Origin: a virus
Reading direction: 5' to 3' (one strand)
IMG/VR virus record: IMGVR_UViG_3300032401_000094
Coordinates: 1-22,507 of that record
Length of the DNA stretch: 22,507 nucleotides
Shown here: one piece after another, positions 4,290 through 22,507 of the stretch
Position numbering within the stretch: the first letter of the stretch is position 1
Layout of the letters: the number at the start of each line of letters is the position of its first letter
Notes under the pieces: model-generated
Told to the model about the DNA's origin: nothing
The model's database searches: none
The model's input: the letters and a program-made list of their open reading frames with translations, nothing else
Made by a program: the position numbers and the translations under genes

Positions 4290-6857
4290 TCAATCGGCAC
4301 CAGCCCCGGCCACGAACGGTGTCACCATCCTCAGGAAGGTGGGAACGCCCGCGGACTTCTCGAGCCCCAAGATTTTCTCCTCTACGAGGCTCGGGTTCAG
4401 GAGCATCTGAACCGACGGATGGGATGTCACGGCTTTCAACTGTTCGAGATCCACGTGGCTCAGCCAGGCCTTGTACGAGTCGTACGAGTTCGCACGCTTG
4501 ACCAAGACCGTCGGCCTCCAGATGGACGCTTCTCTCGGCGTCCGCATCGAGAAGAAGGGGTCGAACATCGATCTTTTCTCGATCAGCCCCTTCGATCTAC
4601 CTAATAGTGTAGGGTCGGGCTGTTTCAAGTCAAGATCCGCAGGGACCTTCTGATCTCCGAGAAGATAACCGGCCTCTTCCGGCTTCAGGATCACGCCGAG
4701 AGACGTCAGCGCGGAAAGGATCGTCTGGGGCGAGAACCCCTTCAAATCCATCATTTCCTTCGGAAGAGTCTCCGACGTCGCCTGATCCTTCGCGACCCGG
4801 TTGAAGAGGATCTTCCAGACGTCAGGATCGATCGGCGAGGGCCCGAGATTCTTCTGGGGCTCCTCCACCGGGACTTCCTTCTCGATGTCGGCCTTCTTCG
4901 TTCCGCCAGCGGAGAGGAAGTCGAGGATGCCGGCGAACTTCTCGATCCCCGCCATCGGGGGAGCGAGCACCGGGGACTCGACGATCTCGACGAACGGACC
5001 GCCGACGGAAGCGATCTTCTTCAGGGAGTAGGCGCTCCGGTCGGCGGGGACGATGACGGCGGAGATGTCGAAGAACCTGGGGAACCAGTTCCAGGAGAAG
5101 ACCTTCTGCCCGTCCGGAAGAACGTGGTTCTTCATGTTCTTCAGGTGTTCGCAGTACATGTCACGATTTGTAGCAACATTCATGCACACGGAACAGTTGT
5201 GGGCGATGAAGCCCACGTGGTAGGTCTCGTCTTCCTCGACGGCGAGATTGAAAACTGGCTTCTCGACCGCCTCTTCCTGGATGACGGTATCGACAGGAAG
5301 AAGGAAGAAGTCCCCATGCTCGATGATCGTGGCAGACCACCGAACGACCGGTTCCACGGAGGCACACTTCGTAGAGTAGTCCTTCAAGATGCTGGTTCCA
5401 GCGCAACCCAGGTTCAGTTGATTGATCGTAGTCCCAGGGCTCCAGTCGCTGTAAACCCTGTTGCGGGACATCGTAGCCGGGATTCCCACGGAGAACGCCA
5501 GGATCTGGGCCTGCTCCATCAGCGGGTTGATCGTGATCGTGATCCTGGAACCCTTCTTCTTTTTGTCGACGCAACCGTCGGTGTCCATCATCCCACCGAG
5601 AAGAGCCAGCCTGGATTCCACGGGGCTGTAGAAGATCTCCGCAGGGATGTGCTTCTCCTTCAGGCGTCCGCACATCCCTGCGACCCTGGCTGCCAGCACC
5701 TGATCATGACAAACGATCTGGACAGCATGACGATCCTCACCGGCCGGGTAGACGTGAACTTTACTCTCGGAGAGAATCTCGAAAGTATCCACTACCCGCG
5801 CGATGTGGTCCTTCTCGTCCGCGTTGCAGCAGACCGAGATCCCCACGTAGTCACGACCGCCGGTCTTTCCTTCGCCCCGACGCTGCGTAATGATGCACCC
5901 GTCCCCAAGGTAGTAGCCGCAGAGACGCGCCAACGGAACGTCGATGGACTCGTACTCCGACGTATCCATCGACAACCGAGGAACGGCGACGTAATCGCCC
6001 GGCTTGACGGATGAAGCTTCAACGAAGGCACCGGTGACATCAGCAGCCTTTTCATTGAGCCGACGTCCGCCCGGAGTCCTGATCTGTTCCTTCCGGAAAA
6101 CGAACACCGGATGATTGCCCGTGAGCGTAGGACGCTGAACCAGCCCTTTGACCTTCAGTGTGACAACCGTTCCGGTATACGATCTGCGAAAGACCTGGAC
6201 GACTTTACGTGCCCTTCCCTTGTTGGTGAAGACAAAGTCTCCGACCTCAACGTCCTCGACGTTCTTCACCATGTCGGGACCGTAGATCTGAGTGCCAGGG
6301 TACAGGCAGAGATCATAGGGCAATTTAGCGCCCATGGACCACGGGATCGGCTCGCCGGCGTCGATGCGCTGGACGAGGTCGGGAGCCTTCTCGTTGGACA
6401 CGAACACGATCAGCTCGACGCGGTGCATCTTGTCGTTGTAGGCGGCGCAGCACACGCGCTCGCCGATCGTGAGCGTCGGGTCCTGGTTCTGGTGATAGCG
6501 GTAGGTGTAAGCGTACCGTTCGAAGGTGTCGCACCCATACTCCGTCGGCATGGGGAGACCCTTCGCGCGGATGAACTCCTTCACCATGGGAGGCGGCGGT
6601 TCGCCCTTGAGGCTCCACTCCGGGAATGCGTCGGCGTTCGCGTTACTCGACCAGTATTCGTAGGCGCCGATCGCGTTCAGCAGGACGTACCGGCCGTCGT
6701 CGCGGGGACGGATCCGGTCCATGAAGTCGATGAGCTTCTGGGGCGTGAAGGAAGTCCCCGCGATCTTCTCCATCGATCGCGGATGCAGCGGGATCGCCAC
6801 CGGGCCCCATGCCTCGGTGCCGGATCCCAGCGGCGTGTAGACTTCCATCTCGAACAT
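4290..6857 (-). CDS. Capsid maturation protease-like protein interrupted by an intein
   Basis: 855 residues as translated, 484 after removal of the intein (residues 184-554). The N-extein has a NANADAFPEWSLKG segment (72-85), then YRYHQNQDP with His122, MHRVELIV, and GEPIPWSMGAK with Ser174. A His, then a VEL strand, then an S-M/I-G serine is the pattern of HK97-type (S78) prohead proteases, so His122 and Ser174 are the likely catalytic residues. The C-extein starts with C-x2-C-x10-C-x-H (Cys555, Cys558, Cys569, His571), a zinc-knuckle-like motif, followed by FFDISAVIVPADRSAY. The last ~200 residues look like a separate helical region, perhaps a fused scaffold segment. The start ATG (6855-6857) has only AAAGG upstream and follows a hairpin at 6869-6885. 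The role is to cleave internal head proteins during maturation. The family assignment is by pattern; a structural head protein of related fold is the alternative. Confidence 0.72.
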   Translation of the reverse strand: MFEMEVYTPLGSGTEAWGPVAIPLHPRSMEKIAGTSFTPQKLIDFMDRIRPRDDGRYVLLNAIGAYEYWSSNANADAFPEWSLKGEPPPPMVKEFIRAKGLPMPTEYGCDTFERYAYTYRYHQNQDPTLTIGERVCCAAYNDKMHRVELIVFVSNEKAPDLVQRIDAGEPIPWSMGAKLPYDLCLYPGTQIYGPDMVKNVEDVEVGDFVFTNKGRARKVVQVFRRSYTGTVVTLKVKGLVQRPTLTGNHPVFVFRKEQIRTPGGRRLNEKAADVTGAFVEASSVKPGDYVAVPRLSMDTSEYESIDVPLARLCGYYLGDGCIITQRRGEGKTGGRDYVGISVCCNADEKDHIARVVDTFEILSESKVHVYPAGEDRHAVQIVCHDQVLAARVAGMCGRLKEKHIPAEIFYSPVESRLALLGGMMDTDGCVDKKKKGSRITITINPLMEQAQILAFSVGIPATMSRNRVYSDWSPGTTINQLNLGCAGTSILKDYSTKCASVEPVVRWSATIIEHGDFFLLPVDTVIQEEAVEKPVFNLAVEEDETYHVGFIAHNCSVCMNVATNRDMYCEHLKNMKNHVLPDGQKVFSWNWFPRFFDISAVIVPADRSAYSLKKIASVGGPFVEIVESPVLAPPMAGIEKFAGILDFLSAGGTKKADIEKEVPVEEPQKNLGPSPIDPDVWKILFNRVAKDQATSETLPKEMMDLKGFSPQTILSALTSLGVILKPEEAGYLLGDQKVPADLDLKQPDPTLLGRSKGLIEKRSMFDPFFSMRTPREASIWRPTVLVKRANSYDSYKAWLSHVDLEQLKAVTSHPSVQMLLNPSLVEEKILGLEKSAGVPTFLRMVTPFVAGAGAD
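5196..6308 (-). mobile_element. Intein with LAGLIDADG endonuclease domain, in the capsid protease
   Basis: A 371-residue in-frame insertion. It begins with Cys1 (CLYPGTQIYG), carries the block B motif TLTGNHPVF (Thr63, His66), has two LAGLIDADG motifs (LCGYYLGDG at 129-137 and LLGGMMDTDG at 236-245, acidic residues Asp136 and Asp244), a block F (VFNLAVEEDETYHV), and ends FIAHN with Asn371 before Cys+1. All residues needed for splicing are present, and both endonuclease acidic residues are kept, so it looks active in splicing and perhaps in homing. Joining the flanks gives PYDL-CSVC, which reads as a continuous protease sequence. The boundaries follow from Cys1 and His-Asn/Cys. Confidence 0.93.
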
Positions 6858-10046: not shown

Positions 10047-11810
10047 TCAGATCGGAGGCACCCCCGTCGGCACGAGCCGCCCGGCCCGCTGGAGCGCCGC
10101 GAGATAGCAGTACACCACCGCGTGGAACGCGTCGTCTGGCAGCGTGTGGTCGTACCGGACCCTGTTGGTCCTGATGTTGTACTCCACGAAGGTGGACGTG
10201 AAATCGCTGAGGAATTCCTTCATGTCCTCCTGGCGGAAGAACGAGATCTCCCCGCGCTTGATGGCGCCGACCGTCCGCTCGATCGCGGTGTTCCTGTCCA
10301 CCATGTATCGAAACGCCTGGTCGTGGAACGAGACTGCCGACGAGGAGGTAACGTACTCGGCCTCGAGGAGGGTGGGCTGACCGGGAACCTCGAGGACCGT
10401 CCAACCGTGCTTCTGGACGAGCTGCGCATTCGTGTGCGCACCGAACCCCCAGTCCGACATGACCCACTTGGCCCCGTGATCCCGGACGACCTTGTTGATG
10501 ATCTCCGGCTGGAAGGCGAGGTTAGACATCTCCCCCGTGAACCGGATGATCTTGAAGATCTTGAAATGGGTCCGGTCAACGAAGGCGCCGAAGGCTACCA
10601 CCGTGAAGGACGGCATGTGGCCACGGCGGTTCATGACTTCCCCGAGGCCGGTTGGGGAGTAGCCTCCGGTTCCGTGGTCGATCCCGGCGCAGACGAAGTG
10701 GACGGACTGGGCGATCTCCCGCTCCCTGGCCATCGGACGGCTTGAATCGCAGTTCTGGAGGATGTCCATTTCGGTGAGGACCAGTTCTCCCTCGTCGTAG
10801 GAGAGGCCGAGAACCTCGTTGAAGAAGACCTTCCTGGGGATGTTGGGGTCTTCCAGCTTCTTCAGGATGTCGGCATGGCTCACGAACGGAACCATCATCT
10901 GCGGCATCCGGAATCCCCAGCCGTCATCGAGACGGCTGGGATTGAGAGGCTGCCAGGAACCGCTCTTGATGTGGATGGGCTTCCCGCACTTCGGACAGAT
11001 GTATCCCTTCTTGCCGATGACCTTGTCGTCGAGGTAGACCGACTTGCTGCACCCCTCGCACGGGACCAGCCACTCGAACTGGCACGTCTCCTTCCACAGG
11101 CGGTTCAGTGTGTTGCTGGTCGTCTTCGGGGTTCCCGTGTAGAGCCTGAACCTGTCCGGCACTTCGACGTGAGACATCGACTGTTCGAGGATGGGGATGT
11201 TGTCCGAGATGAGATCCTGCACCTCGTCCAGGATGATCATGCGGGCGGAGACTCCGCGGGCAGGGTCGGCCGAGTAGTAGCAGGACTTGAAGTTGACGAT
11301 GCTTCCGTTGGCGAACTGGCGCGCGCCCACCTGCCACAGGTCGCTCGATTTCACCCACCCGTCGTAGATGATCGGCGAGTCCTCGCAGATGGGCCGGAAC
11401 CGCTGCTGGCTGAACAGGGACGTCTGATCCTGGCGGGGTTCCACCGCGAGCACGTTGAAATACGGATTCGTGATGCAGAGCGTGACGGCCTTGCCTGCAA
11501 TCGTACTCGTTTTCTCGACTTGTCTCCCCGCGACCCAGACGATGTTCTTCGATCCGATCGGGTACTCTTTCCGCCAGTCGTAGATCCAGCGGAGGTAGGG
11601 ACGTTCCGCAAACGAGAGCGGCTGGCGGTTGATGGTGACGAAGGCTTCCGCGTAAAAGGAAATCGAGTGCTCTTCCTTGCCGGGGATCGCCCCTCCGGCG
11701 TTGTAACGGATGTCCCCCGGCATGTCGGATAGTGTGGTGGGACGCAGGGAACGGTGGCCGGCGTCGACGTAATCGTCCACGTCGGATACGTACTGCGATA
11801 CGAGGCTCAC
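10047..11810 (-). CDS. terL: Terminase large subunit
   Basis: 587 residues, the normal size for the packaging motor that translocates DNA into the prohead and cuts the concatemer. The ATPase half has a Walker A-like loop AGRQVEKT (94-101, Lys100), Walker B MIILDE (191-196, Asp195 and Glu196) and the coupling motif TGTP (225-228). A four-cysteine zinc ribbon follows (Cys251, Cys254, Cys272, Cys275). The RNase H-like nuclease half shows GIDHG (Asp378), MSDWGFGAH (Asp453) and LPDDAFHA (Asp560), the expected acidic triad. The Walker A loop has Glu where Gly is usual; Gln-Val-x-Lys is otherwise terminase-like. The start is GTG (11808-11810) with GGAGG just upstream, overlapping the upstream stop by four bases (GTGA), so the two genes are probably translationally coupled. 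No small terminase subunit is recognisable nearby. Confidence 0.93.
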   Translation of the reverse strand: MSLVSQYVSDVDDYVDAGHRSLRPTTLSDMPGDIRYNAGGAIPGKEEHSISFYAEAFVTINRQPLSFAERPYLRWIYDWRKEYPIGSKNIVWVAGRQVEKTSTIAGKAVTLCITNPYFNVLAVEPRQDQTSLFSQQRFRPICEDSPIIYDGWVKSSDLWQVGARQFANGSIVNFKSCYYSADPARGVSARMIILDEVQDLISDNIPILEQSMSHVEVPDRFRLYTGTPKTTSNTLNRLWKETCQFEWLVPCEGCSKSVYLDDKVIGKKGYICPKCGKPIHIKSGSWQPLNPSRLDDGWGFRMPQMMVPFVSHADILKKLEDPNIPRKVFFNEVLGLSYDEGELVLTEMDILQNCDSSRPMAREREIAQSVHFVCAGIDHGTGGYSPTGLGEVMNRRGHMPSFTVVAFGAFVDRTHFKIFKIIRFTGEMSNLAFQPEIINKVVRDHGAKWVMSDWGFGAHTNAQLVQKHGWTVLEVPGQPTLLEAEYVTSSSAVSFHDQAFRYMVDRNTAIERTVGAIKRGEISFFRQEDMKEFLSDFTSTFVEYNIRTNRVRYDHTLPDDAFHAVVYCYLAALQRAGRLVPTGVPPI

Positions 11811-12979
11811 TTACCCTCCGGCTTCTTCTGCTCCAGAGGTAAGGCTTTCACTTCGTGGAGACCGATCACGTTGGAGGCCGGAATGATGGGACCGTTTTCA
11901 CTGCCTGCGCCGATGACAAGAAAACGGTCGAAGATCTTGGCGATGTCGAGGCTGCCCTCGCCGAGCTTGTCGAGCCGGTCGCTGACCTTGAGGATGGTGT
12001 CGAGGTTGGACCGGGCCGCCTGGATCGCGGTTCCGGTTTTGAGTTGAGTTTGCTTGAGGAACTCGGCCTGAGCCTCTGACCGGAGCAGCTCGAGGACGCG
12101 TTTGTGCTCGCAGGAGAGCCCCTCGCGGGCGGAGAACTCTCCGATGGAACGGTTCATCGCGACCTCCCTCAGCGTGCGGTCGATCTCGGGAAGCGTCTTG
12201 AAGTAGGAGGCCAGGTCGGTGGAACCGATCTCATGGGACGAGTAGTACAGGTTCCGGTACGCGTTGACCGCGTGCGAAGGGACGAGCGGAAGCGTGGAAG
12301 ACGGGTTCACCATCTTCCCGAGGGCGGAAGAAACCTCCTCCGCGCTTCCCAGGGCCGTCATGAGCGGCTCGATGAAGTCCCTGTACCCGAGCAGGTAGCC
12401 GAGATCGTCGATGAGCTCCGGGGTGTCGTAGTACACCAGGATTCCGAGAACCTTCAGGAACAGCCGGAAGAGCCGGCGCCCTTCCTTCGGGACGGGTTCC
12501 TGCTTGAGGATGATGGAGTTCCGGATCTCCAGCGGCACGTTCCTGAGGAACTGCGAGTAGTACCTGGACAGGACGGACTTCTTGTACTGACCGTTCTTCG
12601 GCAGGAGGCCGATGCTCACGGCCTCCTCGTAAGTTTCCCCCGGGGACGTGTTGACGAACCGGAGCGAGAGGAAGCGGTGGAAGGGAAGGACGGGGATGTC
12701 CGTCTTCACCATCTTGAAGGACGCGATGTCGTTCGCGGCGCTCCGAAAGACGAAGTGGTTGTGGGCCCCGATCTCGTAGAAGTTCTTCCCCCGCTCCTTG
12801 ACTACCCCTCCCTTGAGGAACCCGTGGCCGAGGATATTTTCGAACGTGGCCAGGGACAGCTTGTAGTCGGCGAGGATCTGTCCCCGCGACTTTCGAACGA
12901 CCTTCGGTCCCGTCTCCTCCGGTACCGTCTCCTCCGGTACCGTCTCCGCCGGTTCCGGACTATTCGGCTCCGATTCCAC
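11807..12979 (-). CDS. Unidentified protein coupled to the terminase (390 residues)
   Basis: GTG start (12977-12979) with AGGAG eight bases upstream, overlapping the upstream gene by 20 bases; its stop overlaps the terminase start by four. The first ~30 residues are acidic and contain a PEETV repeat (see 12909-12953). The rest looks globular and mainly helical, with aromatic-rich segments (ILVYYDTPELIDDLGYLLGY, NAYRNLYYSSHEIG, DIAKIFDRFLVIGAG). I know no family for it. Genes translationally coupled to the large terminase often encode packaging or head-vertex proteins (small terminase, portal, connector). A portal is usually longer and has a different pattern, so I leave the function open. Confidence 0.72.
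   Translation of the reverse strand: MESEPNSPEPAETVPEETVPEETGPKVVRKSRGQILADYKLSLATFENILGHGFLKGGVVKERGKNFYEIGAHNHFVFRSAANDIASFKMVKTDIPVLPFHRFLSLRFVNTSPGETYEEAVSIGLLPKNGQYKKSVLSRYYSQFLRNVPLEIRNSIILKQEPVPKEGRRLFRLFLKVLGILVYYDTPELIDDLGYLLGYRDFIEPLMTALGSAEEVSSALGKMVNPSSTLPLVPSHAVNAYRNLYYSSHEIGSTDLASYFKTLPEIDRTLREVAMNRSIGEFSAREGLSCEHKRVLELLRSEAQAEFLKQTQLKTGTAIQAARSNLDTILKVSDRLDKLGEGSLDIAKIFDRFLVIGAGSENGPIIPASNVIGLHEVKALPLEQKKPEGK
12909..12953 (-). repeat. Three 15-base tandem repeats coding for PEETV units
   Basis: Three consecutive 15-base units (12909-12923, 12924-12938, 12939-12953), differing at one or two bases, within the N-terminus of the 390-residue protein. On the minus strand they encode Pro-Glu/Ala-Glu-Thr-Val/Gly repeats, an acidic and probably disordered leader. 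The length is a multiple of three, so copy-number change would not disturb the frame. Confidence 0.85.
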
Positions 12980-14717
12980 CGGTGGTACTCCTGAGCTGCT
13001 TCATCTGGCGGATGACGTTGTCCAGGGCGAAGAGGGCCGTCTTGAGCGGCGCCGTCTCAACCTGGAACCCCATCTTAGACGCCAGGAGCAACTTCGCCAG
13101 GACGGCAGACGCCTCTTCCAACTCGTCGGTGTGATCGAGGAACTTGTAGATGTTGGCATCGTTGATGAAGTTCAGGCCCAGGATCGAATCCACGGTGTTC
13201 TGGGCCTGCTCTTCGGTGACCGCGACGGCGATCTTGCAGAAGGGACCGAAGTCGCACGGCTTGATGTGGGCTGCCTCGGCGGCGAGGTTCACGGGCTTCA
13301 GGCTGAAGTTCGCCAGGTCGGCGGACCCGAGTTTCTTCATCCCCTCCGCGGGCTTGGTGATGCGGCAGAAGGAGGATCCCACCAGGGAAGCGGTCTTCAT
13401 CAGGCCGGAGACCGTGACCGGATCGAACTTCTTCTCCATCGCCTTCCGGAAGGTCAACGAGGATTCCCCGGTCTTGGCGATTCCGTGGATCTCGGCTCCG
13501 TGGAGAGAGTAGACGAGCCCGCGGTTCCGGATCTCCGCTCCGTCGGACGGCCAGTCGAACTTGTTCGCTTCGGCCGCGGTGGCCACCTTGACCGTGTCGC
13601 CGCAGCGGTGCCACGTCCACTCGGGGGACATGAGGACCGTGTCGCCCATCATGGCGACGGACTGGCAATCGGGCGAGAACCTGATCGTCCTCTCCATGCC
13701 GTCCACGGACAGGTCTGCGACCTTCGCGAAGGGCAGGCCCTCCTCGTCGGTGCCCCAGTAGAGGAACCGGGCCGGCCACGTGGCGAAGGCGTGCCCGAGC
13801 TTGAGCATCCAGAAGAAGCCGACCTCGCCCTGCTTGGCGTCGGTGGCGAAGTTGCCGAGATTCTCGAGTGAGAGCGGCCGAGCGCCGACCTCGTCGGCCA
13901 GGGCGACGGACGCGTTCTTCTCGAGGCTCACGACGAACTTCTTCCCCTCCATGATCTGGCCGTCCCAGCCGAGCATGACGTCGAAGACCATGGCGGCCTC
14001 CTTGCGGAAGCCGTCGAACACCACAGAGTAGGCCCCGGGCTCCTTCACCGGCTCGTAGGCCTTGAAGTCGATGGGCTCGATCTTCCAGCCGGAAGCCGTC
14101 TTCTCGATGGTACGACCGGGCAGGATCTTCTCCTGGGCGCCGGCGGCGAAGGCCTCCGCGGTCTTGGCGAAGGTGCCGTTCGTCTTGAGCGCGTACTCCA
14201 GCCCGTCGCGGCCGAGGGCATTGAGGGCCTTGGTGTAGTCGTCGAGGGAGAAGGTCAGCCCGGACGCGAAGGAATACTTCCCGGAGAACGGCGCGCGGGT
14301 GACATTGTAGATGGACATGTCGGCCATCTCGCCCTGGCCGGGTTCGATGGACTTCCCCACGCCGGTGTCCTGGATCTGGCTCAGGAGCGTCGCCTTGGTC
14401 ATGGGGCGGAGCTTGCCGTCGGACCAGAAGACGTCGAACGGCTGGATCTTGAAGCCGTCGATGACCACCGGGATGGCGACCTTGTCGTTCAGCACGAGCT
14501 GGCCGACGGCGGTCCCCGCTTCCGGGTCGCTCCGGTTCATGTGGAGACGGATGGAGTAGTCCTGGAGGTAGGGATGCTGCTCGTGCAGCAGCATCATGAT
14601 GTTGCTCTCCCACTTGGAGGGATCCCGGTCCGCCTTGACCGCGGCTTCCTTCGAGAAGGGGAGCGCGGACTTGTCCAGGAACAGCGGCTTGCCGCCGACC
14701 ATCGATCCGAGAGCCAT
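12960..14717 (-). CDS. Large unidentified, probably virion, protein (585 residues)
   Basis: ATG at 14715-14717 with AGGAGG six bases upstream, ten bases after the spike gene stop. N-terminal region: MVGGKPLFLDKSALPFS, then AVGQLVLNDKVAIPVVIDGFKIQPFDVFWSDGKLRPMT in which a beta-rich core is followed by a DVF-x-DGK-x-RP motif; this arrangement resembles uncharacterised structural proteins of large phages. The middle is beta-rich with many Gly and Trp (LGWDGQIMEGKKFVVS, FFWMLKLGHAFATWPARF). The C-terminal ~150 residues are helical (EEQAQNTVDSILGLNF, ASAVLAKLLLASKMG). The stop lies within the start of the next gene (20-base overlap). It could be a baseplate, neck or head protein; its place between spike and terminase does not decide this. 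Confidence 0.72.
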   Translation of the reverse strand: MALGSMVGGKPLFLDKSALPFSKEAAVKADRDPSKWESNIMMLLHEQHPYLQDYSIRLHMNRSDPEAGTAVGQLVLNDKVAIPVVIDGFKIQPFDVFWSDGKLRPMTKATLLSQIQDTGVGKSIEPGQGEMADMSIYNVTRAPFSGKYSFASGLTFSLDDYTKALNALGRDGLEYALKTNGTFAKTAEAFAAGAQEKILPGRTIEKTASGWKIEPIDFKAYEPVKEPGAYSVVFDGFRKEAAMVFDVMLGWDGQIMEGKKFVVSLEKNASVALADEVGARPLSLENLGNFATDAKQGEVGFFWMLKLGHAFATWPARFLYWGTDEEGLPFAKVADLSVDGMERTIRFSPDCQSVAMMGDTVLMSPEWTWHRCGDTVKVATAAEANKFDWPSDGAEIRNRGLVYSLHGAEIHGIAKTGESSLTFRKAMEKKFDPVTVSGLMKTASLVGSSFCRITKPAEGMKKLGSADLANFSLKPVNLAAEAAHIKPCDFGPFCKIAVAVTEEQAQNTVDSILGLNFINDANIYKFLDHTDELEEASAVLAKLLLASKMGFQVETAPLKTALFALDNVIRQMKQLRSTTGGIGAE

Positions 14718-14727: not shown

Positions 14728-16074
14728 CTAACTCTTCAGGAAGACGTCAGTGTTGACCTTTACGATGTCCACCCCGAGCGATGCAAGGTCCGGAGAGATC
14801 AAGACGGGCCCCGTCGGGGGCGTGAATCCGTGCGTGTGCGCCATCAACTTCTGCAAGTCTTTGGCGTACACGTCCGTCAGGAACGTCTCCAGGACCGCCG
14901 CCTTCTCGCTCGATCCGAAGTACGCGTTTTTCTGGAAAACGCCGTTACCACCGAAGTATACGCTTTTCAAGAACTTTATCCCTGGTCCGCCCTTCGCGGT
15001 GCCCTGGGACCACTCACAGATCGGGGTCTGGTCGGATGGACTCTTGTCATGGGTGAAGGTCTTCACGACCGCCGGATCCCACATGACCCAGGGACCGCCG
15101 AAGCCGATCACCTTCGCCTTAAAAAAGAGGCCGTCCTTGTTCAGGGACATGAACTGGTCGCCCCAGGAAAGGACGACCTCATCGCTGTTGATACGGAACT
15201 GGAATAGACCCGGAGACTGCGTCTGGTCCTTCAGGTAGGTGACCCGCATCTCCCGGACATCGTGGTCCGACTCGAACATCCCGAAGTCGCGGATCTTCAT
15301 CTGGATCCCGCGGGTCATCTTCTTGCCGCTCGCCAGCGCGCTCTGCCCGTACCCGAAGTCGTCCCACTCCTTGAGCCCGCCGGCGAAGAGCGTGACGTCC
15401 CGATCGGTCTCCGACGCCGGCTTCGTGGAGTCGGGAGGGTTGGTCGCGAACGACATCTCCAGTCGCTTGACGGTCTCGTCCTGCTGCTGGGCCTCGTTCC
15501 CTACCGTCTGCATGGACTTCTTCGGAACGTCCCAGATCTTCAGGGAGAAGCCGGGGATCACGTTGATGATCAGGCGCCCTGCGGTGATCACGGCGGCGCG
15601 GAACCTGGAGAGAAGTCCCACGTACAGGATCTGCGCCGACTTCAGGATGACGCTCGCGTCCGAGAATATCCCCATCATGGCGTCGGAGACCCGGCTCCTC
15701 ATGAGGATGTCGCCGAACGTGGGAACGTGTTCCTGCTCGCCCTGGAAGCTCGGCTTGTTGGCGACCCCCGTCTGGGGCTCTACCTTCATGTCCTGCTCGG
15801 CCTTGGCGAGGATCTGGGAGAGGCTCTTCTGCGCATCGTCGTTCGGAGCGACCGGCATGGGGACCCTGGCCAGAATGATCCATCCGCACGGGCTGTCGGC
15901 GATGACGACCGAGTCCCCCTCCTTCAGGGGAACCTGCATCCCGATGTCCATGTTCCGGCAGGTGACGCGGGTGCCGCCATGGACCAGGACTTCGTATCTG
16001 CCGTCGGCTGGGAACACGTTCTCGACGAGGCCGAATCGGCACTTCATCTGCCGGTCTGGGGAGAGGGAGCCCAT
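14728..16074 (-). CDS. Baseplate spike/needle-like protein
   Basis: 448 residues, ATG at 16072-16074, one base after the polymerase stop; the Shine-Dalgarno AAGG lies inside the polymerase 3-prime end. Residues ~10-75 look like a small beta-barrel (RFGLVENVFPADGRYEVLV, then VPLKEGDSVVIADSPCGWIILARV), compatible with the OB-fold that heads phage spike proteins. Hydrophobic and beta-rich repeats follow (VILKSAQILYVG, FQFRINSDEVVLSWGDQF). Near residue 411 AHTHGFTPPTGPVLISPDL matches the H-T-H...P-T-G-P signature near the end of gpV/gp5-type spikes, and KSVYFGGNGVFQKNAYFG before it is beta-helix-like. There is no lysozyme domain. The product should tip the tail tube and pierce the outer membrane, suggesting a contractile-tailed phage; this last step is inference. 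Confidence 0.7.
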   Translation of the reverse strand: MGSLSPDRQMKCRFGLVENVFPADGRYEVLVHGGTRVTCRNMDIGMQVPLKEGDSVVIADSPCGWIILARVPMPVAPNDDAQKSLSQILAKAEQDMKVEPQTGVANKPSFQGEQEHVPTFGDILMRSRVSDAMMGIFSDASVILKSAQILYVGLLSRFRAAVITAGRLIINVIPGFSLKIWDVPKKSMQTVGNEAQQQDETVKRLEMSFATNPPDSTKPASETDRDVTLFAGGLKEWDDFGYGQSALASGKKMTRGIQMKIRDFGMFESDHDVREMRVTYLKDQTQSPGLFQFRINSDEVVLSWGDQFMSLNKDGLFFKAKVIGFGGPWVMWDPAVVKTFTHDKSPSDQTPICEWSQGTAKGGPGIKFLKSVYFGGNGVFQKNAYFGSSEKAAVLETFLTDVYAKDLQKLMAHTHGFTPPTGPVLISPDLASLGVDIVKVNTDVFLKS

Positions 16075-16075
16075 G

Positions 16076-19000
16076 CTATGCCTTCTTGAACGAGCCGAAC
16101 ACGAAGCGCGTCACGGGGTGGCCCTTGGCGAGATCGGCGATCGCGCCGATCGCTGGGGCCTCCTTCAGGGTCTCGTGAGGCCGTTCGAACATCAGTTTAC
16201 CAATGAAGTCCTCGCCCTTGAAGGGCGAAACGCGGATCGGCAGGAGCGTCGCCCGGTACTGGATCTTCTCCTTCTGCGGGAGTTTCGCGTTGACGTCCTC
16301 GATCTTGTTGATCGAGACGATGTCCCCGCGGTAGATCCCGAGCCTGTTGGCCCCTCCCGCGTCGATCACCTCCGCCCGATCGGTCATCGGCTTCACGGCG
16401 GTCTCGAACAGCTTGCGACGCATGTTGATTCCGCCGGACGAATACTCCTTTTGGAGATCCGCGATGATCTGGTCCCTGACCCGGTGGATGTCGCCCGTGG
16501 CTTCGAGAAGTTCCTGCGGCTTGATGGCGCCGGTCTCGGAGATCTTCTGGCCGGCCGCTATCTTGTCGCCCTTCTTCACGGACAGGCCGAGTTCCTTCGG
16601 CACGAAGTGATCCATCGTCCCGATGGTCACGTTCCATCCGCCGCCGAGCCCAGGCTTTACGTTCGTGACGGTACCGCCCTGCATGGCGAGCGAGGCCTTG
16701 CCGACGACGTTCTCCGGCATCTCGAAGATCTCCTCGATCCGGTCGAATCCGACGCGGCTCTTCGAGATGGCGCCGCCCGTGTGGAACCCGCGGAGCATGG
16801 TCTGGAGGACGGGTTCCGAAACCGACTGTCCCACCAGGGCCCCGACGTGGAATCCGACCGGGAGGAACTGGCCGTTCTCCGCAAGGCCGTAGCACTTCGC
16901 GCAGATCCCCCGGATGGCGGAGCAGCGGAGCGGAGACCTGACGACGATCTCGGGAACTCCTTTGCTCTTGAGCTTCCCGGCGAATTCAGGGGTAACCACT
17001 TGGCCTTTGTACGGCCCTCTGGCGATCACGCGGTCCAGGGCGTCCCTGGAGTCGGGAGGCATCGGGATCCCCTGCTCCGTACCGCAGTCCATCGTCGAGA
17101 TGATCTGCTCGATCGTCGTGTTGACGAGCCGCTTGCTGAGCGTTCCTACGTCCTGCGTCCCGAGCCCCTTGTCCATGAGCCCCTTCCGGGATCCTGGGAT
17201 CGTCGCCCAGTACGAGGCGATGTCGTGTCCCTCCGCGTAGCTCTTGGTGATCGGGACCTTGATGACCTCGCCCTTGTGGTCGACCATGGCGACCGGGGTG
17301 GCGATCATCTGGGTGATCTGCGATCCCTTTCCGAAGGCTCCGGACGTGATGTTACCGATGACGAACCGGTTCTCCTTGCTGTTCTTCACCAGGTCGTTCA
17401 TCTTGGTCGTGGCATCCAAGTACGCCTTGTCGAAGCCAACCGTCTTCGCCGCCTTCGCGGCGTCGGAGAGGATGAGGTCCCTCGCCTTGTAGTCCGTCTC
17501 GAGGTCCTTCAGCCCGACGGAGAACCCGATCTCCGTGACCGCCTTGGCTCCCCAGTCCTTCAGGCTGGTGATAACGGCTCCGGCTTCCTTCGGATGCTTC
17601 CTCGCCAGGTTAGCCAGGAAGTCTTCCATGACCTTCCTGGTGATGGTGACGTTCCCCGGCTTGAGATCGCTCGGGAACAGGTCGTTGATGATCACCTGCC
17701 CCGCGGTCCAGATCTTTCCCCCGATGACGACCGGCGTGTTGATCTTGATCTTGCCGGCCTCGTACATCGAGACGACCTCTCCGGTGGCCTTCGCCTGTAC
17801 CGGGATTCCCTTGGGTTCCGTCATGAGGTAGAGACCGAGGGCGTATTCCTTGGACGGGGCGTGCATTGCCGAGAAGTCCGTCACCGCCAGCAGATGGGTG
17901 GACGGCATCTTGTTGAAGGCTTCCTTCCTGGCGTCCTCGCTGACCGGGACGTGGATTCCGACGGTGTCTCCGTCGAAGTCCATGTTGAAGCCCTTCACGA
18001 TCAGTGGATTGATCTGGATCGCCTGGCCCTTGACGAGCGTGGGCTTCAGCGCCAGGATTCCGAACTTGTGAAGCGTGGGCGCGCGGTTGAGATAGACGGG
18101 CCTTTCCTTGATCTCGGCACGAAGTGCAGCAAGCGCGCGCTCGTCCTTCTTCTCGATGAGTTCCGACGCCTGCATCGGCGGGATACCGGAGACCACGAGC
18201 CGGCGCATGATGAACGGCTTGTAGATGACGAGGCCCATGTCCTCCGGGATCCCCACGTCGTCGATTCCGTACTTAGGATTCGGGATGATCGTGGACCGGC
18301 CGGAGAGATCCTGGGGGCGCTTCACCACACGCCCCTGGAACAGGCCGTACTTGTTGATCCTCCCCTTGATCGTCGAGATGAATCCCTGGAAGTTCTTACC
18401 GCGGGTGAGGGGCTCGGCGACTCCTGCCATCCCCTGCACCGCCCCGTAAAGGCTCGACCGGAGGTTCGCCAGGTTCTTGCTGTCGACGCCCTTGGCCTTC
18501 AGGTCCTTCAGCTGGTTGTTGACCAGCAGGATCTCCCGATAGCAGTGGTTAGGATCGGCGACGTTCAGGGCGCCGTCAGGCAACGGATAGATCTGCCGGA
18601 AGACCGGGGGGATCACCGGAACGACCGACTGGATGTACGCCTGCGACGGCTTGAGCCCGGACAGCTTCAGGGACTGAAGGTAGCGGCGACGCCGATTCAT
18701 GTCGTCCAGCTGGGAGGCTCTCGCCGTCCTGATGGCAGGGACGAGATCCTTGAGTTCCTTGTCGATGTCGATCCTGTCGAGCAGATACTTGATGCCTTCC
18801 CCCGCGGCCTTGCCCTGCGTGTGGTCCGTGGTCATCGATCCGTCCGGCTTGACGAAGAGCAGCCCTTCCATGATCTGCTTGAACTGGGAGGACGTGATCT
18901 TGGTCACCGAGACGATCGGACGCTCCATCAACGGATTGGGAATCGGGGACTCGAGAACGATGTGGTTCCAATTGACTCCGCCGAAGCCTCCGGTGATCTC

Positions 19001-22000
19001 GCGGTCGAACAGTCCTCCGGCTTCAGGACGGAGATCGGAGGCGCGAACCACGCTGGGATTCTTGATCTCCCCGTGCGATTTGGCGAGGACGGCCTTGTCG
19101 GTGAGGGGGAGCACCTTGAACTGGGATCCGTCCTGCACGAGGTTGATCCCCGCTCCCTCGAGGTAGGTCATGAACTTGTCGAGGATGTAGGGGGACTTCG
19201 GAGGCGGAGTCGGAAGCCCGAGTTGGTACGCGCGCCAGTATTCGGGATTGCTCTGGCTCTTCAGCGTGGAGACGTCCTTGAGGAAGTGGGTGGACCCGCC
19301 TCCGAGGAGCGCGTAGAGTTCCCCGGTCCCGATGTTCTGGGCGCTCTCGCCGGAGACCTTGGCCGGCTGCTGCTCGCCCGTGTAGGGGCCGATCCCCTTC
19401 GCGGAGAACTTGTGGCGAACCTGGTGCTTGAGTTTGAAGAACGGGACCTGCCCGACGAAGACGTTCTCGATCGTCCGGTTCCCCACCGGATCGAAGACGT
19501 TCTCGGTGTCCTTCAGACCGTTCGCCTTCAGGTCGTTCTGAAGTTTCTTCAGCGAGGACTCGGACGAGAAGTTGTCGACGAGGTACTTCTTCCCGGTCTT
19601 CTCGGAGATCTTTCCGGCAGCGCCCTCGAAGAACTGACCGGGATTCACGCGGCCGCCGACGCTGGCCGGGTTGAAGAGCACGTCGATCACGTTGCCCTTC
19701 TCGTCCCGGTACATCTCGTTGTCGGGAATCAGCGCCACGACGATTCCCTTGCCGCCGGAGGACTGCGACAATTTGTCGCCGATCTGGAGAGCCTCGTCCG
19801 TCTTCACGAAGACCCTGACGAACTTCCCGGTCTTGACGACATCGATGACCTCGCCGGGGTAGTTCTCTTCCCAGTAGATCGACACGTCGCGGAACGGAGT
19901 CCTCAGGGACTTGTGGAGACGGGCGTAGGCCATCTCCTCGTCGATCTGAGCCTGTTCCACCGCGGGAATCACCGGGTCTCCCTTGGCCAGGATCGCGCCC
20001 TTCTTGACGATCCCGTCGGCGTCGTACTTGTCGGGCTTGATGATGTCCGCCCGGTCCGGGTAGTGGGCCAGCCAGATCTTGAGCCCGGTCTTCATCGTGG
20101 CGGTTTTGTCGAGCCTCAGGTCGTACTTGTGGGAGGACGTCAGCTTCTTGGCGGCGCCCTCCGAGATGACGATGCCATCCTCGAAATTCATTCCTTTGTA
20201 CGGCATGTACGCCGTGTTATGGACGGCCAGCCCAGACTCGACTAAGAAGGTAGAGACCGGCGCCATGTCCAAGTCGTACACGTAATCTTCGAAATCCGTT
20301 GGGACAACACTGACCGCGACATCCCACCACACCGGTGCCTTGTACAACCGCTGGATCTCTTCAGGGAGTTTTTCGATGATCCCCTTAATCATGGGACGAG
20401 TAACGTAACCGACGTCATTCCTGATCTGTTTACCCAGAATCTTGTCGATCAACAAACGCTGTTGGTGCGTGATCGGAATGCGATCTCGGCTGAGGGACAT
20501 GGGAAGAGATGCCAGCCTGACCACCCCCTTGTGTTTTCTAAGCAGGCTCAACTCGGGGAAGTTGCCAAGGGTCTCCTGGTAAGCCCGGATGTGCCAAGAT
20601 GCCATGTGGGTGCCTTTTGCGGGCTCCATGCCGAGATGCGTTCGTACTCCGAGATGAGCCAGGAGCATCCGAAGGCCCACTGCCAGTATGTAAGAGGCCG
20701 TTGCGGCAGACACATTGCCCTTATTGGCCGAGCCGTCACCAGACCAGTACCCGTCGATGAATCCAATCTTGAACTCACGAGGGGCAGACCACAGAAGGTC
20801 AGGAATCCGCTTGTGCTGGGACAGATAACCGCATTTCTCATGAAGGAGATTTCGAAGGGCGGCACTGTAGATGACGATCATGGTGGGGGTCTCCTTGTAG
20901 CCCAATCCCCACTTCTTTGCGATCGCCACCAACTTTTCCCGGATCTCCGGCTCCGTCGCCGCCATCATGATCGCCCGACGCCCCGATCCCTCAGCAACAT
21001 AGATGCCGAAGAGGAAACCAGCGTCTCGGTCGAGACGAAGCCTAATCGAGGCTGCTCCGCGCTTGGCATGACCCTCGGCCCATTCAATGTCCTCAGGCAA
21101 CTCGAAGGAATGAGCCTGCGGAAGCAGGGTTATCCCTTCCTTCATTTCCTCTGGTTTAACCTTTATCAGATGGCCATCTTCACCGGCCGTAACGAAGCTG
21201 TGACTCTCCGTGGCCTTCACGATAGTTCCGGTATCCGTGATGATCTTGTACATCCCTCGATCGGTATAGTGCCCGATGAATGCCTTGATCGGGGAAGTCA
21301 CGATCTTTCCATCGCTGCACATCGCCAACGATCGGACACCGGCACGAGCCGGAGCATCCTGGATCGGAGTGAAATGACCCCCCTTCTCATCGAACCAAAG
21401 GACATGGGTGTCTCCGGACACACTGGTGAGGCGCTTCGAGAAGGTCAGCGTCCCGTTCTTCGAGAAGTTGTTGTCGGCCAGGACCTGCCCCTTCTTCACC
21501 TTGTCTCCGACCTTCACGATGGGCGTGTCGTGAAGGAACGCATCGCCGTTCAGCGGGTAGTTGTTATGCAGGTAGACCGTCTTGACCTCGCCGCCCACCT
21601 TGACCTTGATCTCGTCCTTCGTGATCTTCGTGATCACGCCATCGTCGGGAGACCTGGCGTTGAACGATCTCCCGAAGAAGTCGTGGTAGCCGAGTTCACC
21701 CGCGTACCGGCTCTGCACGAGCGGCATGTCCGGGTCCTTCAGGGGCACGGACTGCTCGATGTGCCGGTCGGCCATGAGGACGCGGTTCGGAGAGTTGTTG
21801 TGGAGGAACGGGATCGCGTTCGTGACGATCGAGAAGAATCCCTTCGGATCTCGAAAGATGTACTGCACCGAAGCAGCGGGGACGATCTCGATCTTCGATC
21901 CGTTCTTGGCCTTCACCATGGGGGAGACCGGCTTCGGCTTCGCCTTGGTGAGGTCGTACTGGTCGTTGAATGCGATGACCGCCAGTTCGAGTTCCTGCGG

Positions 22001-22507
22001 AGTCTTGTGGACGGTCTCACCGGTCTTCGCGTCGGTCACGCGGATGACGAGATCGTTCCCCCGCTTCTCGGCGCCGAGCGCAAGGTGCCCAGTGATACCG
22101 ATGCGGCTCCCTTCGGGACTATGACAGGGATCGAGGAACCCCATGTGGCTCGGGTGGACGAGACGGACCTCGTCCTTCACGGCGTGGGTGGACTGGATGC
22201 CACCCTCGCCCATCGTCGTGGTGAGGTTCACGGTACCGGCCATGTCGACGGGATTGTTCTGCTCGGAGTACCTGGTGAACTCGCTGGTCTCGAACCAGGA
22301 GAGGACCGTGCCCGAGAACGTCGCCGGCGAGATGAGCGAGGTGATCTTGGGATCCCTGTCCATCTTGTAGGCGATCTCGCGGGTGATGAAGGGGACCGCC
22401 TTGGCGATCTTCTCGGGGACGAAGTCCTCCACCGAGTGGATCGACTTGAACGCCAGGGACTCCGTGTCGTCGGCCTTCGCGAAGCCGTTCGCCAGGGCGA
22501 CGGCCTT
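16076..22507 (-). CDS. Single-chain beta/beta-prime multi-subunit RNA polymerase, N-terminus cut by the window edge
   Basis: Open from the right edge to the TAG at 16076-16078 (2143 residues visible, 1740 without the intein). Beta part: FTRYSEQNNP and VHPSHMGFLDPCHSPEGS near 22130-22290, IPFLHNNSPNRVLM and VPLKDPDMP near 21700-21810, the NFEDG segment (20174-20188), GDKLSQSSGGKG (near 19750-19790), then HQVRHKFSAKGIGPYTG and GTGELYALLGGG. With no stop it passes into beta-prime: GGLFDRE (about 19000-19020), VVPVIPP, FQGRVVKRPQDLSGRS, LNRAPTLHKFGILA, and the catalytic NMDFDGD (17966-17986) with all three metal-binding aspartates. The trigger-loop region has GSRKGLMDKGL, a zinc site has four Cys (CGT, then RCSAIRGICAKC), and the bridge region has VGALVGQSVSEPV. 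The beta-prime N-terminal zinc ribbon is missing. It transcribes DNA; its promoter specificity factor is not in the window. The beta N-terminal third lies outside. Confidence 0.95.
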   Translation of the reverse strand, partial: KAVALANGFAKADDTESLAFKSIHSVEDFVPEKIAKAVPFITREIAYKMDRDPKITSLISPATFSGTVLSWFETSEFTRYSEQNNPVDMAGTVNLTTTMGEGGIQSTHAVKDEVRLVHPSHMGFLDPCHSPEGSRIGITGHLALGAEKRGNDLVIRVTDAKTGETVHKTPQELELAVIAFNDQYDLTKAKPKPVSPMVKAKNGSKIEIVPAASVQYIFRDPKGFFSIVTNAIPFLHNNSPNRVLMADRHIEQSVPLKDPDMPLVQSRYAGELGYHDFFGRSFNARSPDDGVITKITKDEIKVKVGGEVKTVYLHNNYPLNGDAFLHDTPIVKVGDKVKKGQVLADNNFSKNGTLTFSKRLTSVSGDTHVLWFDEKGGHFTPIQDAPARAGVRSLAMCSDGKIVTSPIKAFIGHYTDRGMYKIITDTGTIVKATESHSFVTAGEDGHLIKVKPEEMKEGITLLPQAHSFELPEDIEWAEGHAKRGAASIRLRLDRDAGFLFGIYVAEGSGRRAIMMAATEPEIREKLVAIAKKWGLGYKETPTMIVIYSAALRNLLHEKCGYLSQHKRIPDLLWSAPREFKIGFIDGYWSGDGSANKGNVSAATASYILAVGLRMLLAHLGVRTHLGMEPAKGTHMASWHIRAYQETLGNFPELSLLRKHKGVVRLASLPMSLSRDRIPITHQQRLLIDKILGKQIRNDVGYVTRPMIKGIIEKLPEEIQRLYKAPVWWDVAVSVVPTDFEDYVYDLDMAPVSTFLVESGLAVHNTAYMPYKGMNFEDGIVISEGAAKKLTSSHKYDLRLDKTATMKTGLKIWLAHYPDRADIIKPDKYDADGIVKKGAILAKGDPVIPAVEQAQIDEEMAYARLHKSLRTPFRDVSIYWEENYPGEVIDVVKTGKFVRVFVKTDEALQIGDKLSQSSGGKGIVVALIPDNEMYRDEKGNVIDVLFNPASVGGRVNPGQFFEGAAGKISEKTGKKYLVDNFSSESSLKKLQNDLKANGLKDTENVFDPVGNRTIENVFVGQVPFFKLKHQVRHKFSAKGIGPYTGEQQPAKVSGESAQNIGTGELYALLGGGSTHFLKDVSTLKSQSNPEYWRAYQLGLPTPPPKSPYILDKFMTYLEGAGINLVQDGSQFKVLPLTDKAVLAKSHGEIKNPSVVRASDLRPEAGGLFDREITGGFGGVNWNHIVLESPIPNPLMERPIVSVTKITSSQFKQIMEGLLFVKPDGSMTTDHTQGKAAGEGIKYLLDRIDIDKELKDLVPAIRTARASQLDDMNRRRRYLQSLKLSGLKPSQAYIQSVVPVIPPVFRQIYPLPDGALNVADPNHCYREILLVNNQLKDLKAKGVDSKNLANLRSSLYGAVQGMAGVAEPLTRGKNFQGFISTIKGRINKYGLFQGRVVKRPQDLSGRSTIIPNPKYGIDDVGIPEDMGLVIYKPFIMRRLVVSGIPPMQASELIEKKDERALAALRAEIKERPVYLNRAPTLHKFGILALKPTLVKGQAIQINPLIVKGFNMDFDGDTVGIHVPVSEDARKEAFNKMPSTHLLAVTDFSAMHAPSKEYALGLYLMTEPKGIPVQAKATGEVVSMYEAGKIKINTPVVIGGKIWTAGQVIINDLFPSDLKPGNVTITRKVMEDFLANLARKHPKEAGAVITSLKDWGAKAVTEIGFSVGLKDLETDYKARDLILSDAAKAAKTVGFDKAYLDATTKMNDLVKNSKENRFVIGNITSGAFGKGSQITQMIATPVAMVDHKGEVIKVPITKSYAEGHDIASYWATIPGSRKGLMDKGLGTQDVGTLSKRLVNTTIEQIISTMDCGTEQGIPMPPDSRDALDRVIARGPYKGQVVTPEFAGKLKSKGVPEIVVRSPLRCSAIRGICAKCYGLAENGQFLPVGFHVGALVGQSVSEPVLQTMLRGFHTGGAISKSRVGFDRIEEIFEMPENVVGKASLAMQGGTVTNVKPGLGGGWNVTIGTMDHFVPKELGLSVKKGDKIAAGQKISETGAIKPQELLEATGDIHRVRDQIIADLQKEYSSGGINMRRKLFETAVKPMTDRAEVIDAGGANRLGIYRGDIVSINKIEDVNAKLPQKEKIQYRATLLPIRVSPFKGEDFIGKLMFERPHETLKEAPAIGAIADLAKGHPVTRFVFGSFKKA
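20216..21424 (-). mobile_element. Intein with LAGLIDADG endonuclease domain, in the beta part of the RNA polymerase
   Basis: A 403-residue in-frame insertion. It starts at Ser1 (SVSGDTHVLW), has block B ATESHSFVT (Thr72, His75), LAGLIDADG-type motifs FLFGIYVAEG (137-146, Glu145) and GFIDGYWSGDG (221-231, Asp230), a block F (YDLDMAPVSTFLVE, 383-396), and ends GLAVHN with Asn403 before Thr+1. Ser1 and Thr+1 replace the more common Cys pair but are known splicing nucleophiles. Removing it joins SKRLT to TAYMPYKGMNFEDG, restoring the conserved beta sequence. Parts of it look AT-richer than the flanks (29 of 60 bases G+C at 20341-20400 versus 34 of 60 at 19381-19440), a weak sign of separate origin. 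Confidence 0.93.

Follow-up and report, generated by a model that had tools for sequence, protein, structure and literature searches.

The window, which is the whole 22,507-bp virus record analysed here, encodes what its sequence identifies as a two-barrel (DPBB) DNA-dependent RNA polymerase (RNAP) core, in which a single polypeptide comprises both beta and beta'; nearly all cells make the two as distinct proteins. The same arrangement was found in a phage family that is large, widespread and apparently undescribed. Fused two-barrel RNAPs had been described from cells and from very diverged phages, and near-cellular beta and beta' subunits from the mReC phages. No account of the fusion in mReC-like or jumbo phages was found in the open-access literature; since only that literature was searched, the word undescribed is not proven.

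The fused gene and its intein

The gene, with its in-frame intein, occupies positions 16076-22507; it lies on the minus strand, as do all features of the window given below. It is a single uninterrupted frame of 2143 amino acids plus stop that is open at the right edge, where the virus record ends, so that the 5' end of the gene falls outside the contig. Judged from relatives, approximately 250-270 N-terminal residues of beta are missing. The Pfam domains follow one another along the frame as Rpb2_3 and Rpb2_6 of beta and then Rpb1_1, Rpb1_2 and Rpb1_5 of beta'. The beta portion consists of an N-extein (residues 1-361, 21425-22507) recognized by beta profile matches and a C-extein carrying the DPBB (19136-20215; PF00562, 5.3e-42), while the beta' portion comprises residues 1125-2143 (16079-19135; PF00623, PF04997 and PF04998). 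At the junction, GAGINLVQDG/SQFKVLPLTD (19097-19156), a linker of 3-4 residues is predicted to form a beta-hairpin, and the contig sequence has neither a stop nor a frameshift. The residues that characterize two-barrel RNAPs are present, DxDGD in the beta' DPBB as NMDFDGD (17966-17986) and two lysines in the beta DPBB within the motif GDKLSQSSGGKG (19745-19780). The best PHROG match (E = 1e-107) and a PDB match to bacterial beta' (E = 3e-101) were both far above chance.

The first-pass annotation had proposed a fusion of beta and beta' in one polypeptide, and the single frame with both sets of domains, the NMDFDGD motif and the clean junction confirm it. Its description of the frame as a beta/beta' polymerase holds for the motifs and the fusion, but about 400 residues that it overlooked belong to an intein. 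This element is 403 residues long (residues 362-764, 20216-21424; PF14890, 1.7e-9; PF14528, 5.5e-8) and lies just ahead of the conserved NFEDG region. It has Ser1, a TESH motif, two LAGLIDADG motifs, a terminal His-Asn and Thr+1, and the corresponding site is empty, with uninterrupted sequence, in the nearest relatives (L021, L016, L009 and L017). By these features, the empty site included, residues 362-764 are classified as a LAGLIDADG intein. The polymerase encoded in the window is 1740 residues long once the intein is left out.

An AlphaFold2 model was calculated with 23 sequences for residues 766-1938 only (1173 residues) and had a mean pLDDT of 82.5 and a pTM of 0.71. The hairpin predicted at the junction is formed by strands at model residues 356-361 and 364-369, where the pLDDT was 84-87. 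In a Foldseek comparison, bacterial beta' aligned with the model across more than 900 columns, with an E value of about 1e-54 and a TM of about 0.55. The best structures in the viral library were beta'-sized (1127 and 1192 residues), indicating that no fused relative is among its entries.

A second intein of about 371 residues was seen elsewhere in the window (5196-6308), with Cys1, LAGLIDADG, a terminal His-Asn and Cys+1; the ORF that contains it (4290-6857) has a homologue in L006. Intein-like insertions also occur in the fused RNAP of L002, L004, L008, L020, L024, L055, L062, L064, L073, L087, L092, L184, L225, L228 and L253. The insertions are found at about eight or more conserved sites, which makes the fused RNAP gene an intein hotspot. 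In L066 and L085 an insertion of about 495 residues with intein and LAGLIDADG-like features directly follows the NADYDGD of beta' and seemingly ends in Asp rather than Asn. Insertions without obvious intein ends were observed in the N-terminal part of beta in L056 and L074, and in beta in L042-L044, L078, L082, L084, L089 and L093. Such insertions in beta are 130-380 residues long, occur at two fixed places and are possibly lineage-specific domains.

The fusion across a phage clade

The polymerase is accompanied by phage genes, as the first-pass annotation had assumed in calling it phage-encoded. The adjacent ORF (14728-16074) has a homologue at the matching place in L016 and L018. It is followed by ORFs at 12960-14717 (homologues in L021, L018, L022 and others) and 11807-12979 (homologues in L016, L021 and L018), by a GpA-type terminase large subunit (TerL; 10047-11810; phrog_675, 2.7e-59; PF05876, 6.8e-13) and, further on, by a major head protein (743-1933; phrog_2522, 1.2e-9). 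The homologues of the window genes downstream of the RNAP are collinear in L016, L018 and L021. In the relatives, the gene order runs from the portal gene through an ORF of about 100 residues to the RNAP and then to uncharacterized genes, after which TerL is located in the near relatives of the window. The TerL, the head protein and this portal-RNAP-TerL synteny in relatives bear out the phage assignment. PF05876, the only Pfam TerL match in the window, was present in all 17 fusion-lineage records tested, in 16 of them above the curated cut-off. A search of plasmid DNA gave no match.

Scans with the junction alignment A1 and with cellular beta', together with earlier matches, constituted the first sample. 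Beta and beta' were in one frame at all 99 loci of the fusion clade, a figure that is not a species count because some of the loci are near-duplicates. The junction spacing was 3-7 residues in 97 of the 99; beta' was whole in 42 and was interrupted or ran off the contig in the other 57. Because a query that spans the junction could favor fusions, a second sample was collected with a beta'-only query taken from the deepest branch of the clade. This yielded 61 more fusion loci, 58 full and three with beta' in two frames, along with two partial loci and 15 separate-gene loci in the mReC order. Within the clade, neither sample contained beta and beta' genes of the bacterial type, each with its own start. 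A scan with the C-terminal part of the window beta' found nothing.

An error of assembly or sequencing was considered as the cause of the fusion. Over 150 other loci, drawn from many metagenomes and from several genomes of isolates, also have an open junction, which refutes this reading for the lineage and leaves it a negligible probability for the window.

Among the three loci with beta' in two frames, L319 is broken solely by in-frame TGA. There are 11 in-frame TGA codons in L079 (8075-14146), one in L086 (8102-14173) and two in L319 (4875-10781). The absence of in-frame TAA or TAG in these three genes makes recoding of TGA probable in some phages of the fusion lineage. The beta-beta'N gene of Vibrio phage D148 (L011, 3083-8651), a version in which beta is fused to the N-terminal half of beta', is in two parts with a homing endonuclease gene between them and is uninterrupted in Vibrio phage D69; the interruption is perhaps an intron.

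Phylogeny, known polymerases and a probable later split of beta'

The main tree was calculated from combined beta and beta' sequences under LG+C20+F+G4 (34 rows, 1029 columns). The support was 100/100 for the fusion clade, 100/100 for bacteria and 90/81 for the separate-gene phage RNAPs, and larger, faster trees agreed. A phage clade outside bacteria with a common fusion, which the first-pass annotation had named as the supporting outcome, was thus recovered apart from all sampled bacteria. Separate trees of beta (98) and of beta' (99) also recovered a single fusion clade, so that the two parts of the gene do not stem from different sources. The nearest relative of the window RNAP is L021, with 58% over conserved columns. 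The RNAPs of YerA41, Carin-5, IME392 and Vibrio 1.031.O were profile matches only and stand outside the trees, in which phiKZ and AR9 were not included. As the tree has no root and includes neither archaea nor eukaryotes, no claim is made about a pre-LUCA age.

Fusions of rpoB and rpoC occur in cells, among them Helicobacter and Wolbachia, and a recently acquired cellular fusion was therefore weighed as the source of the gene. Two such fusions were encountered here in bacterial MAGs, L119 (Bryobacterales) and L125, one of them 2892 residues long. As in the window, beta precedes beta' in one frame. However, L119 lies inside the bacteria and keeps the beta' N-terminal zinc-binding domain, whereas the fusion clade, which has lost that domain, lies outside all sampled bacteria (Helicobacter and Wolbachia not being in the sample), and no tree placed the window inside one bacterial genus. 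Cells with such fusions also keep alpha and omega. Moreover, although the genome collection gave a bacterial sequence as its best match, the identity was only 26-36%, and the neighboring phage genes are on the same strand. A recent cellular origin is therefore considered extremely improbable.

The first-pass annotation had also suggested membership in or near mReC, the metagenomic Caudovirales with deeply branching, near-cellular beta and beta' (Weinheimer and Aylward 2020, PMC7481178). These comprise 97 published contigs, for which NADxDGD was used as a filter, and have a PF07068 capsid and a PF03237 terminase (PMC7481178). The mReC-type comparison set used here was recognized by separate genes and their order, by the Gp23 capsid and by the source metagenome 3300017989, not by the contig list of PMC7481178. 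The window RNAP is of the same general kind, since in both cases tailed phages carry a near-cellular beta and beta' that branch outside bacteria, and in an outgroup-rooted drawing both phage groups fall on the same side of bacteria. However, the clades are distinct (100/100 for the fusion and 90/81 for the mReC-type), and the mReC-type genes are separate, in the order beta'-beta at 69 of 70 loci. The Gp23 capsid (PF07068) was found in 6 of 11 mReC-type records as opposed to none of 17 fusion records, the window included, while the PF05876 terminase, found in all 17 of the latter, gave one weak match in the 11 mReC-type records. There were two RNAPs per genome in 6/6 mReC-type phages as compared with one in 20/20 of the fusion lineage, and the mReC-type mostly keeps the beta' zinc domain. 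The NADxDGD filter of PMC7481178 would drop the NMDFDGD of the window as well. The suggestion of mReC membership is not supported and is considered quite unlikely.

In mReC-type genomes, for example 3300031669_004775 (L207, L241) and 3300032046_000001 (L219, L240), there are two different RNAP gene pairs, each with beta' before beta; the presence of two RNAPs was likened to phiKZ-type phages. Two records that appeared to be separate-gene phage relatives, 'Staphylococcus phage SA 1306 Kay' (L014, OR844998.1) and 'Enterococcus phage Efs 1-1-1' (L015, OR846602.1), were rejected. They are unverified phage records that resemble a Firmicutes chromosome, their gene lengths equal those of Firmicutes rpoB and rpoC (L099, L100), indicating host contamination, and they were grouped with bacteria. 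PHROG 24349/25354 (1191 and 1216 residues) may likewise stem from host contamination.

The crAss-like, YonO and P23-45 RNAPs also carry both DPBB domains in one chain, but they are highly diverged and reduced (PMC7886860, PMC10770324). A crAss-like or YonO-type enzyme would be expected to escape recognition with cellular RNAP profiles, whereas the window RNAP still matches the RNAP families of Pfam (E down to 5e-42) and can be aligned with bacterial beta and beta' along their lengths. The vRNAP and nvRNAP of phiKZ/AR9-type phages resemble the fusion lineage in being without alpha or omega, and their beta' is split after DPBB-A as in a nested subclade described below (PMC7598289, PMC7824862). 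In these phages, however, beta is split too, there are two RNAPs and no sigma homologue, and the sequences are far more diverged (PMC7598289, PMC7824862). The fused chain, the single RNAP in 20/20 records and the sigma domains in most relatives set the fusion lineage apart from that type.

Loci with beta-beta'N and a separate beta'C formed one nested group (100/99), with one full fusion, L064, inside it. Outside the group every sampled branch is a full fusion, including the deepest, L178 and L224. Two isolates, Salmonella phage Arash (gp206 and gp216) and Vibrio phage D69, are members. They have a sigma factor, which in Arash is gp196, a GpA-type TerL and the portal, small ORF and RNAP order of the fusion lineage, and differ from the window in that the C-terminal half of beta' is a separate gene. 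The annotation of their RNAPs goes no further than 'DNA-directed RNA polymerase subunit beta' or hypothetical; the deposited Arash protein is named subunit beta. The simplest reading is that the fusion came first and that beta' was split later, after the DPBB-A region; L064 would then represent either retention or re-fusion within the split group. The phiKZ-type vRNAP and nvRNAP and the cyanobacterial beta' are split after that same domain (PMC7598289).

It is tentatively suggested, as a reading that may well prove wrong, that the lineage is old, that its ancestral RNAP was one-chain, alpha/omega-free and sigma-directed, and that beta' was cut once, later, at the spot of the phiKZ and cyanobacterial splits. 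If so, split phage polymerases can derive from a fused chain. The split subunits of jumbo phages have been proposed to be pre-LUCA relics (PMC7824862), and a fused ancestor would count against that proposal. As the succession of fusion and split is legible within one clade, it is relevant to the question of whether the split RNAPs of phages are a primitive or a derived state.

Lost domains and a one-chain core

The beta' N-terminal zinc-binding domain was missing in 102/102 clade frames, where it is replaced by 13-25 residues, typically without Cys; in the window the place is occupied by GLFDREITGGFGGVNWNHI (18959-19015). The domain was present in 82/82 bacteria, and most mReC-type loci have it too, as does the beta' of the Rhizobium phage. 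The second beta' zinc site was kept in 76 clade frames, and in the window its first Cys lies in TMDCGTEQG (17069-17095) and the remaining Cys in LRCSAIRGICAKC (16892-16930). The catalytic motif is NADFDGD in 31 of 43 full fusions. The stretch VGQSVSEPVLQTMLRGFHTGG (16772-16834) is taken to be the trigger-loop region from its resemblance to bacterial beta'. The bacterial stretch GGQRFGEMEVWALEAYGA is without conservation in the clade.

Alpha, omega and sigma were sought in 20 related records of 100-217 kb; the window, a fragment, is outside these counts. Alpha was found in 0/20 and omega in 0/20, in searches whose controls worked. Sigma region 2 was detected in 10/20 and region 4 in 14/20 (E<=0.001), and sigma matches were absent or only weak in 6/20. 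One RNAP was counted in each record; in G021 two matched pieces share one frame and were scored as one.

In cellular RNAPs, beta and beta' are put together with the help of alpha and omega, alpha being the assembly platform. The first-pass annotation had argued that a single chain removes the need for subunit assembly. The failure to find alpha and omega genes agrees with this idea, but the nested subclade split beta' again, so that a single chain is not indispensable. It is likely that phage transcription in this family is served by a one-chain RNAP core free of alpha and omega, intein-spliced in the window and probably directed by sigma. The fusion, the catalytic residues, the intein, the clade and the absence of alpha and omega matches in relatives are read from sequence, whereas splicing, catalytic activity, sigma use and assembly without host alpha are what we infer. 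After splicing, beta and beta' would form a single chain about 2,000 residues long, and the beta intein would have to self-splice to yield a working enzyme. Since the beta C-terminus joins the beta' N-terminus via a short hairpin, the halves would be tethered and the core could form without phage alpha or omega. A phage sigma70-type factor would probably guide the core to phage promoters, where it would transcribe phage genes. Alternatively, host alpha could bind the fused core, or the phage sigma factors could act on the host RNAP instead.

A further reading was that the product of the fused gene is cleaved into beta and beta' after translation. Phages carry head-maturation proteases, which counts in favor of cleavage. 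However, the linker is just 3-7 residues and is predicted to be a well-ordered hairpin, and bacterial-type genes with their own starts are lacking in the clade; cleavage is accordingly judged unlikely. It was also considered whether the one-chain core, instead of being made during infection, is packaged as a virion RNAP and enters the cell on injection to transcribe early genes. The location of the gene between the portal and terminase genes in relatives and the precedents in crAss-like and phiKZ-type phages favor a virion enzyme, while the sigma domains in most relatives and the single RNAP, which fits late transcription too, speak against it. Packaging is thus a serious possibility, but a doubtful one.

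With the fused family one can study how much of a cell-type RNA polymerase is essential and by what route viral polymerases came to be fused and split. Near-cellular cores that occur in nature as one chain, with neither alpha nor omega detectable and with phage sigma domains in most relatives, would give a minimal sigma-dependent polymerase. For the beta-beta'N version, the isolates Arash and D69 exist.
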